Origin: a virus
Length of the DNA stretch: 23,288 nt
Direction: 5' to 3' (one strand)
Virus record (IMG/VR): IMGVR_UViG_3300032268_000072
Location: 1-23,288 of that record
Shown piece after piece: positions 17,561 through 22,765 of the stretch (within the stretch, counting starts at the first letter, position 1; the number at the start of each line of letters is the position of its first letter). The position numbers and the translations under genes are program-made. A model generated the notes under the pieces. It was given only the letters and a program-made list of their open reading frames with translations, was not told where the DNA came from and ran no database searches.

Positions 17561-17835
17561 TGGCAACAGGAACTGCAGGTAGTACATTTACTAGTGAACT
17601 TAATCGTTTAGCCAATGGTGGTACTTACCCTGCCCTAACCATTTACAAAGATGCACAAGGTGCTGCAAATGCCTACGCCAGTACATCTGGTTTAGGCATT
17701 ATTGCTGCCCTTAATCTTAAGGCAGATGCTAACCGCCAACCTAATAACTACAAAGGTTTAAATGCTATATGTAATGAACTTGCTAGTACCACCAATTTAT
17801 CAGCCGTAGTTGCTTTAAGGAGTATTAATATATGA
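17560..17835 (+). CDS. Hypothetical 91-aa structural-operon protein
   Basis: It starts on the last base of the preceding stop codon. The product begins MATGTAGSTFTSELNRLANG, has TYPALTIYKDAQGAANAYA, a small hydrophobic stretch GLGIIAALNLKA, and ends LNAICNELASTTNLSAVVAL. It is neutral and probably globular and helical, unlike the basic peptides before it. I recall similar short proteins just ahead of connector or tail genes in actinobacterial phages, of unknown function. Its stop overlaps the next ATG by four bases. Confidence 0.8.
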   Translation: MATGTAGSTFTSELNRLANGGTYPALTIYKDAQGAANAYASTSGLGIIAALNLKADANRQPNNYKGLNAICNELASTTNLSAVVALRSINI

Positions 17836-18725
17836 GTACCTTTACTCAACTAACAGACCGTGTAGAAGCGTTACTTCATGGCTATACAGAAAACACCGAG
17901 CCAACCTCATGGCTAACTACCAGCGCTACAACAGCATCAACTACTTTAACTGTTTATGATGCTACAGTAGTTGGGCGTGGTTATATTGAAATTGATGATG
18001 AAATTGTATTTGTTAATAATACAGACAATGTTGCTAACACCTTAACCCTTGCCCCATGGGGTAGAGCGCAGCGTGGTACTACTGCTGCAGCACATAGCAC
18101 TAATGCTAAGGTTACTGTAAGCCCATTGTTTCCACGACAAGAAATTAAAAATGCAATTAATGACACTATCAATGCTATGTATCCAATGGTATTTGCTGTT
18201 GCTTCCTATGATTTTACCTATGTAGCAGCACAGTATTCTTATTCAATTCCTGCTGCAGTAGAAAATATTTTAAGTGCTACCTATTCAATAGTTGGTCCAT
18301 CTAAAGAGTGGTTTCCAGTTCGTGCTTGGCAACTAGACCGAACTGCAGATACTACTGCTTTTGCTAATGGTAAAAGCGTATCCATATATTCAGAGGTAGT
18401 TCCTGGACAAACGGTACAAATTGCTTACTCTAAGCGCCCAACATTACTAAGCAGTAACAGTGATGATTATGCAACTATCACAGGCTTACCTTCATATTCA
18501 GAAGATGTGGTTATTTATGGCGCAGCCTTCCGTATGATTTCTTTCCTAGACCCATCACGACTTGGTTCTCAATCTGCCTCAGCAGATGTACTAGATGGCG
18601 TTAGACCTTCAGGCTCTGGTCAAAATGCTTCCAGATTTTTATTTAATATTTATCAACAAAGACTTAATGAAGTGGCGGATAACCAACGCCGTCAATACCC
18701 AATCCGTTCCCACTACCAAAGATAA
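17832..18725 (+). CDS. Head-tail connector/adaptor-like protein
   Basis: A 297-aa protein with two parts. Residues about 50-98 form a beta module (GYIEIDDEIVFVNN...WGRAQRGTTAAAHS) that also occurs in the next gene. The rest, from FPRQEIKNAINDTINAMYP, has the layout of a connector or tail-tubular A-type protein: an N-terminal helix, a beta-rich core (FTYVAAQYSYSIPAAVENI), and C-terminal helices with EDVVIYGAAFRMISFLDPSR and a charged end with RLNEVADNQRRQYP. No siphovirus tail-tube or tape-measure gene follows, so a ring between portal and short tail is likely. The family assignment is by layout and position, not by a diagnostic motif. Confidence 0.6.
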   Translation: MSTFTQLTDRVEALLHGYTENTEPTSWLTTSATTASTTLTVYDATVVGRGYIEIDDEIVFVNNTDNVANTLTLAPWGRAQRGTTAAAHSTNAKVTVSPLFPRQEIKNAINDTINAMYPMVFAVASYDFTYVAAQYSYSIPAAVENILSATYSIVGPSKEWFPVRAWQLDRTADTTAFANGKSVSIYSEVVPGQTVQIAYSKRPTLLSSNSDDYATITGLPSYSEDVVIYGAAFRMISFLDPSRLGSQSASADVLDGVRPSGSGQNASRFLFNIYQQRLNEVADNQRRQYPIRSHYQR

Positions 18726-18734
18726 GGTAAAATA

Positions 18735-20531
18735 ATGGCAGCAGGCGACCCAGGCTCAGTCAAGCGGAATTTCTCCTCAACCGCAGTAGAAACTTCGCTC
18801 GTATCATCAATAGGTTCACAAGCACAAGGACAATCAAACACAGCATTTATTGTCGCTTCTAATAGCGGTTTTCCATCAGTTCCTTTTACATTAATAGTTG
18901 ACCCAGATACCTCCAAAGAAGAGGTTGTAACGGTTACTGCTGCAAGCAGTACAACACTTACTGTTACTCGTGGTGAAGATAGCACACAAGGTGTAGCCCA
19001 CTCTGCTGGTGCTGTCGTAAGACACGGTGTATCTGGTAGGGATTTCCGTGAGGAACAAACCCATATTGCTGCTCGTGGTTATGATGCAGATTCTGCAATA
19101 CTTGCATTAGCATCCCAAACACATGTGCATGGTTTAGTAGCCGCTGACGGTAGCATAGTAGGCACAGATGCTTTACAAACTCTTACTCGTAAAACTTTAA
19201 CCTCTCCTACAATTACCAACCCAACCATTACTGGTGCTGGTGTTGATGCAAGTATTGTTTTTGAGGGTGCTACCGCTGATGCACATGAAACTACTTTAAC
19301 AGTAGTAGACCCAACAGCAGATAGAACAATTACTTTACCTAATGCAACTGGAACTGTAGCCCTTGTTGCAAATGTGTTAGCCCTTTCTGGTGGCACTATG
19401 TCTGGTGCCATTGCAATGGGTACTAGCAAAATTACAGGTATGGGTGACCCAACATTAGACCAAGATGCTACTACTAAAATTTATGTTGATACAATTTTAG
19501 GCTCTGCTACTGCAGCAGCAACATCAGCAACTTCTGCTGCTACAAGTGCAACTTCAGCAGCAACCTCTGCCACAAGTGCTTCTAATAGCGCTACTGCTTC
19601 GGCATCAAGTGCTTCAGCCTCAGCCACTAGTGCTGCTTCTGCCGCCACATCTGCTACTTCGGCTGCTGCTTCTGCTACCGCTGCTACAACATCTGCTACT
19701 TCTGCAGCAGCATCAGCAACAGCAGCAACAACAAGTGCAACCTCTGCTGCAAATAGTGCAACTGCCGCTGCCGCTTCCGTAGCCACTATTGGAACTTATG
19801 CAACAAGTGCTGCTACCTCTGCAACAAGTGCAGCAACATCAGCCACCTCAGCGGCTACCTCAGCAACTGCTGCAGCAACTAGCGCTACTAGCGCTGCTGC
19901 TTCTGCTACATCTGCTGCTGCAAGTTATGACAGTTTTGATGATAGATACTTAGGTAGTAAGACTTCTGACCCAACACTAGATAATGATGGTGGGGCTTTA
20001 ATAACTGGTGCTCTTTACTTTAACTCTGTAGTTGGAGCAATGAAGGTTTATGATGGTGCAGCATGGGATTTAGTAGCCCCTGATACATCTAACTTTGTTG
20101 ATAAGACAATCCTTACCGCTAAGGGTTCTATCATCTCAGCAAGTACGGCATCTACCCCTGTGGCTCTTACTGTTGCAGCAACCGATGGTTATGTACTATC
20201 TGTATCATCAGCAACTTCTTCAGGACTTGCCTGGGCAGCACCTAACCCTGGCGACATTACTGGTGTAACTGCTGGTACTGGTCTTTCAGGTGGTGGCACA
20301 TCAGGTGATGTAACCTTAAGCATTGATACAACCGTCACAGTAAATTTAAATACAGCACAAACTCTAACTAATAAAACAATATCAGGCAGCAGCAATACGC
20401 TATCCAATATTGGCAATTCATCCCTAACAAACTCATCAATTACCATCAATGGTTCATCTGTATCACTAGGCGGTTCTGTTACAATCGCTGGTGGAGCAGA
20501 TGAGATTATGGTATTGATGGGTGCTCTCTAA
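18735..20531 (+). CDS. Tail fibre with Ala/Ser/Thr-rich shaft
   Basis: A 598-aa protein. Residues about 50-98 share the beta module of the preceding gene (EEVVTVTAASSTTLTVTRGE...AHSAGA), followed by GRDFREEQTHIAARGYDADS, a likely attachment region. LTRKTLTSPTITNPTITGAG (from 150) and LTNKTISGSSNTLSNIG (from 544) are fibre-type beta repeats, and ATTKIYVDTILGSA precedes the shaft. Residues about 255-397 are almost only Ala, Ser and Thr in short repeats. The C-terminal part is Gly/Ser/Thr-rich with ITGVTAGTGLSGGGTSGDV and ends GADEIMVLMGAL. A trimeric fibre is likely. AAGG (18725-18728) is a modest ribosome-binding site. Confidence 0.85.
   Translation: MAAGDPGSVKRNFSSTAVETSLVSSIGSQAQGQSNTAFIVASNSGFPSVPFTLIVDPDTSKEEVVTVTAASSTTLTVTRGEDSTQGVAHSAGAVVRHGVSGRDFREEQTHIAARGYDADSAILALASQTHVHGLVAADGSIVGTDALQTLTRKTLTSPTITNPTITGAGVDASIVFEGATADAHETTLTVVDPTADRTITLPNATGTVALVANVLALSGGTMSGAIAMGTSKITGMGDPTLDQDATTKIYVDTILGSATAAATSATSAATSATSAATSATSASNSATASASSASASATSAASAATSATSAAASATAATTSATSAAASATAATTSATSAANSATAAAASVATIGTYATSAATSATSAATSATSAATSATAAATSATSAAASATSAAASYDSFDDRYLGSKTSDPTLDNDGGALITGALYFNSVVGAMKVYDGAAWDLVAPDTSNFVDKTILTAKGSIISASTASTPVALTVAATDGYVLSVSSATSSGLAWAAPNPGDITGVTAGTGLSGGGTSGDVTLSIDTTVTVNLNTAQTLTNKTISGSSNTLSNIGNSSLTNSSITINGSSVSLGGSVTIAGGADEIMVLMGAL
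19498..19925 (+). repeat. Ala/Ser/Thr repeat tract in the fibre gene
   Basis: About 140 codons are made nearly entirely of GCN, ACN and AGY/TCN triplets, giving units such as SAATSAT. The units vary in codon choice (GCA, GCT, GCC, GCG), so they are old or under selection at protein level rather than a fresh slippage array. The tract leaves long open frames in other frames and on the other strand that are not genes. Confidence 0.8.
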
Positions 20532-20548: not shown

Positions 20549-20851
20549 ATGGCTACAACAAGTAAAGCCCTATTCCGAGGGGCAGCATCAACATCAAGTG
20601 CAACGCTATATACCGTACCAGCATTAACAACTGCAGTGGTAACAAATATTGCTGTTGCTAATTCCGCAACATCTTCAGCAACATTTACTATATTGTTAGA
20701 TGATGTTGAGTTGCAAAAAGATTCAACTATTGAGGCTAACACAACAGCCTATATTGATTTAAAACAAGTGCTTGCTACTGGCAAAACAATTAAAGGTTTG
20801 GCATCTGCAATAACAGTAGACTTTCACATTAGCGGAGTGGAGATTGCCTAA
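20549..20851 (+). CDS. 100-aa beta-rich tail-associated protein
   Basis: AAAGG at 20536-20540 supports ATG 20549. The product reads as a small beta-sandwich: LYTVPALTTAVVTNIAVANS, SATFTILLDDVELQKDS, ANTTAYIDLKQVLATGKTI, ending ITVDFHISGVEIA. The same pattern occurs in short phage proteins next to fibres that may be fibre-tip or baseplate parts. No enzyme motif. It overlaps the next gene by one base (TAATG), suggesting coupled synthesis and a common location on the tail. Confidence 0.8.
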   Translation: MATTSKALFRGAASTSSATLYTVPALTTAVVTNIAVANSATSSATFTILLDDVELQKDSTIEANTTAYIDLKQVLATGKTIKGLASAITVDFHISGVEIA

Positions 20852-22089
20852 TGGCTATTAATAAATATCCTAGTTCAATAGCAGGATTACCAAAATCAAG
20901 CATTGCTTTAGTATTTAGTACTAGCACTCCAGGTGGCGCAGTAGGGTACGATGCAAATAGATTAGATTTTACATATAATTTTAATTTTCCTGCTGGTGTT
21001 GTTACTATACAAGGAAGTGATACCAATATTTCATCATATCCTTCTGCCGTGGCTTCAGGTGATAATTTTACTCCCGCTGCAAATAATTCTACTGTAATAA
21101 ATGAAAACGCTTCATCATCAAGTGTAATAACCGTAGCGGTTCCATCAAGATGGAGAACTGGCGGTACATTGGCTACTTCAAGTACTGCAATTACATCTGC
21201 TGCTTATGCTAACGGTCTTATTTTTGCTACTGTTAACCCTGTGGTAGGAAGAGTAAGTCAATTTTTTGTATCTACAAATGCTACAACCTGGACAGCAGGA
21301 ACCATAGGCACAGCAACTGGTGATAGAGCGTATGCAAGTGACGCATACGATGGAACTTATTACTGGATGGCTAATGGTGGAGATAGTACAATATATATAT
21401 CAACCAATGGAACTACTTGGACTACTAGATTTGGATATGCTGCTACTGGCATATTATATGCTGCTACTGCTCCAATGAAATATGTTGCATACAATAAATT
21501 AGGAACCGCTTCTATCCAAGTGTCAACCAATGGAACTACTTGGACTAGCAGATTAGACCCTAGTACTGGTGCAATTACCGATATGATTTATGCCAATGGA
21601 TGGTATGTTGGAAGTTGTAATAGTGCTATGATGATTACCTCAACAGATGGATTAACTTGGACTACTAGAAATGCTAACAGCAGTGGTAATAATATGACTA
21701 GTGTTGTTTACAAATCTCCATTTTATTATGCTTTTGCTTCAAACCTAATAAGAACTACAACAAATCCTACAACTTGGACTAGCAGAGCCACTGTATTTGG
21801 TGGTAGCAGTGTTGGTGGTATGACAGATGGAACTTGGTTAGTTGCCTTTGGCTCTGGCGGAACCGACTACCTAGTATCAAGTACTGATGGAACTGCCTGG
21901 CTTTCTAGGAATGATTCTGAAACTACTGCAATTGAGGTGGGAACTTATACAAATTCTACTATAGGATTTGTTGTAGTTAGGGCACCTTCAAGCGGTACTG
22001 CTACAACACGGTTTGCTCAGACTCCTGGCGGTACACCTAAATCACTAGACTCAGTTATGCTAAATTGTTACGGAGCATCCAACATATAA
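20851..22089 (+). CDS. Predicted beta-propeller with six Asp-box-like repeats, receptor-binding-type
   Basis: A 412-aa protein. Six S/T-x-[N/D]-x-x-T/A-W repeats begin near residues 141, 184, 225, 264, 303 and 344 (STNATTW, STNGTTW, STNGTTW, STDGLTW, TTNPTTW, STDGTAW), spaced 39-43 residues. This resembles the Asp-box turn of sialidase-type and related beta-propellers, although one residue shorter than the classic form, and suggests at least six blades. The first 110 residues (MAINKYPSSIAGLPK, then Ser/Thr/Asn-rich beta) probably attach it to the tail. No sialidase Arg triad was identified, so carbohydrate or protein binding is likelier than hydrolysis. Location next to fibre genes supports a host-recognition role; this is inferred. 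Confidence 0.75.
   Translation: MAINKYPSSIAGLPKSSIALVFSTSTPGGAVGYDANRLDFTYNFNFPAGVVTIQGSDTNISSYPSAVASGDNFTPAANNSTVINENASSSSVITVAVPSRWRTGGTLATSSTAITSAAYANGLIFATVNPVVGRVSQFFVSTNATTWTAGTIGTATGDRAYASDAYDGTYYWMANGGDSTIYISTNGTTWTTRFGYAATGILYAATAPMKYVAYNKLGTASIQVSTNGTTWTSRLDPSTGAITDMIYANGWYVGSCNSAMMITSTDGLTWTTRNANSSGNNMTSVVYKSPFYYAFASNLIRTTTNPTTWTSRATVFGGSSVGGMTDGTWLVAFGSGGTDYLVSSTDGTAWLSRNDSETTAIEVGTYTNSTIGFVVVRAPSSGTATTRFAQTPGGTPKSLDSVMLNCYGASNI
21400..21547 (+). repeat. 25-bp direct repeat in neighbouring propeller blades
   Basis: The 25 bases at 21400-21424 and 21523-21547 are identical and 123 bp (41 codons) apart, starting TCAACCAATGG and ending TTGGACTA. They encode the STNGTTWT segments of the second and third blades. 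Other blades have diverged, so this pair may be a recent duplication or gene-conversion event. Confidence 0.75.
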
Positions 22090-22102: not shown

Positions 22103-22765
22103 ATGCATGTCAATTTAGTAATAGCAACACCTGGTCACTCAATGATAAGTGGATATGTTAAATGTCTAATGGCAACTATGGATATATTAAATCAAAATGA
22201 TATTTCAGTTGCTTGGACATCAGAGTATTCATCTAATGTTAGCGATGCTAGAGAGGTAACACTTGCTGGCACATTTCAAAATAGTTTAACTGAAACAAAG
22301 CCATTTGAAGGAAGATTAACATACGATAAAATACTCTGGATAGATTCAGATATAACTTGGGAGCCTGAAGATGTATTAAAATTATACAATTCAGATAAAG
22401 ATATTATATCTGGAGCATACCTTATTGCTACTGGAGATGTCATGGCTTACAAAGAAAAACTTGGTAAGCCATATTCTTATGATGAAGTAAAACAAATGAC
22501 AGAGCCAGTTGAAATTTATAGTGCTGGTTTTGGTTTTATTTGTTTTAAATCAGGCATATTTGAAAAAATGCCTCGCCCTTGGTTTCAAGCATTTCCAACC
22601 GAAACAGAGATAGATGGAAAACCTTATGTATTTAACATGTTAGGTGAAGATATTTCCCTTTGCCATCGTGCTAAATCTTTGGGTTTTCAAATTTGGCTAG
22701 ACCCAACAGTAAAAGTAACACATCATAAAACAGTTAAATTAACTTGGGAAGGAGTAAAACCTTGA
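22103..22765 (+). CDS. GT-A-type glycosyltransferase
   Basis: A 220-aa soluble protein. The N-terminal strand MHVNLVIATPGHSMISGYV, a DxD-type metal/nucleotide-sugar motif IDSDITW (Asp81, Asp83), and a C-terminal GEDISLCHRA (181-190) with DPTVKVTHH follow the GT-A fold of family-2-like transferases. A nucleotide-diphosphate sugar would be the donor; the acceptor is not known. No signal peptide or membrane span. The start has AAGGGG at 22091-22096. Being in the tail module it might modify a virion protein or a host surface sugar during infection. The fold is well supported; the substrate is unknown. Confidence 0.85.
   Translation: MHVNLVIATPGHSMISGYVKCLMATMDILNQNDISVAWTSEYSSNVSDAREVTLAGTFQNSLTETKPFEGRLTYDKILWIDSDITWEPEDVLKLYNSDKDIISGAYLIATGDVMAYKEKLGKPYSYDEVKQMTEPVEIYSAGFGFICFKSGIFEKMPRPWFQAFPTETEIDGKPYVFNMLGEDISLCHRAKSLGFQIWLDPTVKVTHHKTVKLTWEGVKP

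Follow-up and report, generated by a model that had tools for sequence, protein, structure and literature searches.

What does a 412-aa protein with regular repeats, encoded in the tail module of a virus, do for the particle, and could it be the protein that recognises the host? The whole stretch of DNA analysed here (the window) is a virus record of 23,288 bases that holds a head and tail module, with genes for terminase, portal, 1945-aa protein, capsid (PF13252), adaptor, fibre, 100-aa protein, propeller gene and phrog_1574 gene. A first-pass annotation had proposed the propeller gene to encode a six-repeat beta-propeller for host recognition. The part of the module that concerns us is as follows.

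17832-18725, plus strand: SU10-type adaptor (PF24175 match).
18735-20531, plus strand: tail fibre (phrog_38058).
20549-20851, plus strand: conserved 100-aa gene (phrog_1276), directly 5' of the propeller gene and the constant flank of the exchange site described below.
20851-22089, plus strand: propeller cassette gene, 412 aa, without Pfam or PHROG match.
22103-22765, plus strand: gene 3' of the propeller gene (phrog_1574; weak glycosyltransferase match).

The ATG of the propeller gene overlaps the stop codon of the 100-aa gene as TAATG. The encoded protein matched nothing in Pfam (E 0.1) or PHROG, and nothing in phage records by tblastn. Its sequence matches in the PDB were rejected as chance-like; a profile search against the PDB gave weak matches, in which designed WD40-type and kelch propellers were mixed with antibodies. 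Elsewhere in the window, the fibre contains an Ala/Ser/Thr-rich stretch with 21-nt and 42-nt tandem repeats (19631-19751), and the unassigned region before the terminase gene (250-860) contains a G run and simple-sequence patches, without a convincing gene.

Six turns of the form S/T-x-N/D-x-x-T/A-W were found in the protein, at residues 141, 184, 225, 264, 303 and 344 (in order STNATTW, STNGTTW, STNGTTW, STDGLTW, TTNPTTW and STDGTAW), with spacings of 43, 41, 39, 39 and 41 residues. In 20,000 shuffles of the protein the maximum was three motifs, and 18,393 shuffles contained none, which confirms the six repeats 39-43 residues apart that had been read from the sequence. The motif had also been described as one residue shorter than the Asp box. 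This is correct, because the classical 8-residue box (S/T-x-D-x-G-x-T/S-W/F), by which membership of the BNR/Asp-box repeat family (PF02012) and of the sialidases would be judged, is absent from the 412 residues, and the protein has no Pfam match to that family.

A profile search of viral contigs revealed at least 202 relatives of the propeller protein among 599 candidate stretches and returned 78 loci; cellular relatives were weak only (19 loci, 24-34% identity). An earlier structure model from a 6-row alignment was poor (pLDDT 50.9). With a 32-row alignment, in which W101 is nearly invariant, AlphaFold2 gave a model of moderate confidence (pTM 0.68, mean pLDDT 66.9) with 28 strands arranged as seven four-strand blades. 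Block means of pLDDT were 61-92 across residues 101-390; the model is not reliable for residues 1-98 or for the last 19. The predicted elements, all on the plus strand, are listed here; blades 1-6 are placed by model and motif together.

20851-20877: N-terminal anchor peptide, residues 1-9, MAINKYPSS, with Pro at residue 7.
20878-21150: N-terminal region, residues 10-100, model pLDDT mostly below 50.
21154-21174: outer strand of split blade 7, residues 102-108, just after W101 (model).
21190-21303: blade 1, residues 114-151, motif STNATTW at 21271-21291.
21328-21435: blade 2, residues 160-195, motif STNGTTW at 21400-21420.
21448-21555: blade 3, residues 200-235, motif STNGTTW at 21523-21543.
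21574-21672: blade 4, residues 242-274, motif STDGLTW at 21640-21660.
21694-21786: blade 5, residues 282-312, motif TTNPTTW at 21757-21777.
21805-21909: blade 6, residues 319-353, motif STDGTAW at 21880-21900.
21934-22017: inner three strands of split blade 7, residues 362-389, without motif (model).

In the model, blade 7 is split between residues 102-108 and 362-389, so that the N- and C-terminal strands would close the ring. Most of the 32 alignment rows had been chosen from 51 candidates that had passed a filter keeping mainly chains with six motifs, and we therefore repeated the blade count without this filter. The starting set was 107 non-redundant frames. Contig ends truncated 27 of these and another 46 exceeded 560 aa; the count covers the other 34, window included: 19 had six motifs plus an upstream W/F, five had seven motifs without it, three had seven motifs with it, and seven were other. 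The seven-blade layout, as six motifs plus the W/F strand or as seven motifs without it, is thus present in 24 of the 34 viral genes. It follows that the annotated propeller stands with its six motifs, and that its six blades become a predicted seven, of which the split one carries no motif.

Structure comparison pointed the same way. The best Foldseek match of the model was YCF48 (E 1.4e-9, 14-18% identity), a seven-bladed photosystem assembly factor; despite this likeness to YCF48/HCF136-type propellers, no shared function is implied. The best VIA-align match was virginiamycin B lyase, which is seven-bladed (Z 29.1, 2.6 A over 280 residues), and the sixth was a chain titled 7-bladed designer protein (Z 26.6). 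In a viral structure library, 226 models matched at E 0.001 or better. These predictions bear out the propeller fold and support the view that the protein encoded at 20851-22089 is a seven-bladed propeller.

Could such a propeller be an enzyme that trims the host surface, for instance a sialidase-like protein, a lyase or a depolymerase? Virginiamycin B lyases are its closest VIA-align matches, and Asp-box-like turns are typical of glycosidase propellers. However, the protein contains no histidine, no classical Asp box and no Pfam match, its best Foldseek match is a photosystem assembly factor, and fold matches at 5-10% identity hold no functional information. We therefore regard an enzymatic role as unlikely.

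An indication of function came from what other viruses encode at the same place. There were 107 loci with the 100-aa gene; six without a readable ORF after it left 101, and dropping L002 (a duplicate of the window) and L079 gave 99 ORFs in 77 clusters, window and L001 included. In L079 (6303-6657) the 100-aa gene itself is duplicated, the second copy lying directly after the first. By simple composition and pattern rules, the bodies of the 77 clusters were 49 glycine-rich, nine propeller-like, nine of a short SIQRG type and ten other; these frequencies are not those of nature, because loci entered the set through a match to the 100-aa protein or the adaptor. Pro at residue 7 is kept in 67 of the 77 cassette clusters, and an F/Y/I/V/L-Pro anchor is present in all nine propeller-like ones.

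The edges of the replaced segment could be placed closely. L036 and L039 encode 100-aa proteins that are 94% identical, followed by unrelated cassettes: at the DNA level the two loci agree by 84% between -325 and +5, are unrelated across the propeller, and agree again, by 80%, from 4 bp past the propeller stop, showing that homology can end at the start codon and restart 4 bp after the stop. The stretch replaced in L036 is longer than the first cassette gene of that locus. In L008 and L009 the stretch between -329 and +20 is 90.6% identical, and the sequences part beyond it. Over 78 distinct loci, mean DNA identity was 0.50-0.57 from -30 to +30 and 0.30-0.34 beyond. Near-identical cassettes (dS 0.05) stand behind diverged 100-aa genes (dS 0.97) in L013/L075, with the reverse pattern in L042/L043 (0.08 vs 1.05) and L053/L055 (0.14 vs 1.34). 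Judged by these pairs, exchange at the site runs in both directions, and the main mode of variation observed in the comparison is replacement of the whole gene. The kept part may extend beyond the anchor. A short 'FxxGxYxI'-like stretch in residues 10-100 may recur in glycine-rich cassettes, and hhalign between the N-terminal regions of propeller and glycine-rich cassettes, for sequences picked by eye, gave 92.8% with the anchor and 35.8% without; controls without the anchor gave at most 0.5% in two control sets and 1.4% in the best of 100 column shuffles. This is weakly suggestive of an N-terminal domain common to both body types.

These observations bear on another structural reading, in which the propeller would be a nozzle-type protein lining the tail channel. 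The window adaptor matches SU10_adaptor, and no other nozzle was identified within the window; in SU10, as passages of PMC9509320 describe, the nozzle protein has a seven-bladed propeller and lines the channel. A nozzle of this type would be a conserved, essential channel protein beside the adaptor, and what is found instead is a position at which most relatives carry unrelated proteins, which argues against an essential channel protein, while the 100-aa gene and the anchor stay as the body changes. Moreover, a chain of 412 aa seems too short to house the platform and nozzle domains of SU10 as well. A nozzle thus seems improbable, slightly more so than an enzyme. A receptor-binding protein fits the locus better: the kept N-terminal attachment, exchangeable distal body and fixed tail-module position of a modular receptor-binding protein or adhesin are all found here. 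Choice of the bacterium is the role to be expected, because relatives swap the propeller for unrelated proteins with the same attachment tip.

In order to assess variation within the gene, we compared it with L001, its only close allele (protein 82% identical, equal length, gapless alignment); a search of viral contigs with two exact DNA patterns recovered L001 alone. The propeller gene showed a dS of 0.125 and a dN of 0.117 (dN/dS 0.93), whereas dN/dS was 0.23 for the 100-aa gene and 0.17 for the phrog_1574 gene. The nonsynonymous excess over the 100-aa gene gave a Fisher P of 0.008 for this one allele pair. Uniform sequence, with no excess of variation over neighbouring genes, would have spoken against the first-pass annotation; an excess is present in this pair. 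Either relaxed constraint or selection could give a dN/dS near one. In an exploratory comparison, the differences from L001 fell on 22 of 78 residues of the B-C and D-A loops versus 7 of 63 of the A-B and C-D loops (P 0.02). Among 17 hand-picked pairs two were identical; each of the other 15 had a higher dN/dS in the cassette than in the 100-aa gene, the margin being slight in L026/L039, the second propeller pair (0.28 vs 0.23). The fibres of window and L001 are saturated at synonymous sites in parts and near-identical in their last 67 aligned codons, as are the genes downstream of the propeller, which suggests one recombined block around the cassette.

Tail genes for host recognition are the main phage targets of diversity-generating retroelements, according to parts of PMC10743442, and the propeller gene might be such a target. 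However, no reverse transcriptase (PF00078) was found in 32 records, which are fragments or of unstated completeness, and the differences between window and L001 are distributed along the gene rather than in one C-terminal patch. We give a retroelement very little probability.

The first-pass annotation had further proposed, from an identical 25-bp block in two adjacent blades, that blades are being duplicated or converted as a way to vary binding. The repeats in question, with an inverted pair found inside the same gene, are these.

21400-21424, plus strand: 25-bp exact direct repeat, first copy.
21523-21547, plus strand: 25-bp exact direct repeat, second copy.
21753-21769, plus strand: perfect 17-bp inverted repeat, arm 1.
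21962-21978, minus strand: perfect 17-bp inverted repeat, arm 2.

The 25-bp block is genuine and above chance, its length being reached in 11 of 5,000 synonymous-codon shuffles. It is no trace of a recent whole-blade duplication, because the DNA of blades 2 and 3 agrees at only 50% of positions over its whole length and L001, with no exact direct repeat longer than 11 bp, lacks the block. We rejected a recent blade duplication in the window gene, as the gene is of equal length and gapless against L001 and identity between blades is at most 0.50. Seven blades is besides the commonest layout in the wider viral family. Ongoing duplication as the way to vary is therefore not supported, whereas exchange of short tracts within the gene may occur.

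Evidence for such exchange was found in other repeats. The 17-bp inverted repeat was reached in 1 of 600 synonymous shuffles and is absent from L001. In the window gene, 152 of 1,236 nt lie in repeats of at least 14 nt, versus 0 of 1,236 in L001, and neither of two nulls (1,000 runs each) reached 152 nt. In ten other window genes, nine had no nucleotides in such repeats and the fibre had 111 nt, a value attained in 16 of 200 shuffles of the fibre itself. The gene might accordingly vary by short templated exchange between its own blades, inverted copies included, more than by cassette replacement. We hold this to be rather doubtful, although less improbable than the enzyme: the observation was made post hoc, two alleles with no outgroup give no direction, assembly effects are possible, and among the seven propeller cassettes besides L001 only L026 (6/200) and L040 (4/200) exceed synonymous shuffles at 5%. 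Replacement of whole cassettes remains the preferred account of the main variation. As an addition to it, there is some chance, a modest one, that the propeller also varies by short direct and inverted copying between its blades, without a retroelement, given the 14-25 bp tracts at which the window allele departs from L001 and matches the gene elsewhere. If true, this would be self-templated variation of a receptor-binding surface while the seven blades stay.

Two details of these tracts were noted. Both 17-bp arms (21753-21769 and 21962-21978) carry differences from L001, at positions on which their match to each other depends. The tracts 21435-21448 and 21456-21469, offset by 21 nt, match over 14 bp; the first departs from L001 at 9 of its 14 sites and looks as if copied from the second.

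Blade duplication may nevertheless hold in other viral propellers, because blade-level DNA repeats are extensive there: in eight of ten examined, at most 1 of 100 shuffles reached the observed repeats, and in L164 and L183 more than 60% of the gene lies in repeats. In L164, L183, L185, L192, L171 and L229, 22-63% of the gene is in repeats of 14 nt or more, far above synonymous shuffles. These six are a better place for studying blade duplication.

Taken together, unrelated bodies on one anchor, excess amino-acid change and enrichment of differences in one loop set give good, though indirect, support to the host-recognition role first proposed, and the tail propeller is likely to be receptor-binding. 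We consider it probable that a phage of freshwater actinobacteria here carries an exchangeable tail adhesin, with the propeller as its distal head, attached by its anchor, binding by its loop face and varied by whole-gene replacement. The N-terminal peptide M-x-I-x-x-F/Y-P would attach the protein to a constant part of the tail, the partner probably being the fibre, the 100-aa protein of the preceding gene, or both. The body is predicted to be a seven-bladed propeller whose blades of ~40 residues carry short Asp-box-like turns and whose ring closes where N- and C-terminal strands pair; it would probably bind a host surface sugar or protein with the face of its B-C and D-A loops. Host range would be changed mainly by recombination that replaces the whole gene between kept flanks, a replacement seen in the comparison of loci, and faster amino-acid change inside the gene, shown for one pair, would add finer variation.

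The host group is indicated by the nearest cultured relatives by adaptor, OX376640 and OX376641 (48% identity), which are LanE43-AprE7 and LanE43-AprF5; phages of these names infect 'Ca. Planktophila', as stated in parts of PMC10202952. Both have the gene order of the window: the adaptor is followed by the fibre, then by a protein that has 108 aa in these phages (phrog_1276 in E7), then by adhesin-like genes. E7 also has a glycosyltransferase-like gene downstream. They differ in that the gene at the same place is glycine-rich, with another anchor (SLKTG...LVGN), in place of the propeller. In LanE43AprE7 (L163, 9793-12101) three consecutive genes have a common SLKTG...LLVGN-type N-terminal anchor and different bodies, which suggests tandem adhesin cassettes with a second anchor type. 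WhiB, treated as an actinophage marker in passages of PMC10202952, was present in 22 of 32 relatives' records searched; none was found in the window's own fragment.

The exchange site is thus defined by a 100-aa gene, a nine-residue anchor and a swappable body, so that host-recognition genes become findable by position in uncultured phages, and a seven-bladed propeller is added to its interchangeable bodies. To our knowledge, receptor-binding proteins of phages of abundant freshwater actinobacteria are uncharacterised. Which surface molecule each body binds is a directly testable question with the cultured Planktophila phages. A literature search of partial coverage, by title and abstract, found no paper on this gene family or site.

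Among named families, DUF6242 (PF19755) gave sub-threshold matches in five of eight propeller cassettes scanned (L001, L026, L039, L067 and L074), and two DUF6242-named phage proteins were among the 50 viral fold matches listed; however, the cut-off is 29 bits, the best relative reached 23.6 bits, and the window protein had no match. The propeller cassette of L074 (706-1911) stands above the Pfam cut-off for EPTP (28.4 vs 21 bits), a family of propellers known from animals. T-even gp38-type glycine-rich adhesins and modular tail fibres likewise combine a conserved attachment part with an exchangeable distal adhesin and vary distally, whereas here, at one site, a peptide of about nine residues is followed by glycine-rich bodies in some phages and by propellers in others. 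Gp45 of the S. aureus phage phi11 is a receptor-binding protein with a propeller closed by N- and C-terminal strand pairing, as predicted for the window protein, but it has five blades in a much larger trimer with stem and tower, on another virion type and host (PMC4901313, in the parts consulted). The same parts describe a seven-bladed propeller at the tail periphery of phiKZ, gp131C, with a proposed role in receptor binding; it belongs to a large myophage baseplate and is compared with the window protein by fold and proposed role. Contractile injection systems combine conserved anchor domains with variable fibres (passages of PMC12923769). In marine phages, hypervariable islands for host recognition contain tail fibres and glycosyltransferases (parts of PMC7029224; see also PMC3909814); they are large, in contrast to the gene-sized cassette with defined edges found here. 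Modular phage adhesins, some with propeller heads, are therefore already known; what is new is one site in actinobacterial phages that takes propeller and glycine-rich bodies interchangeably.
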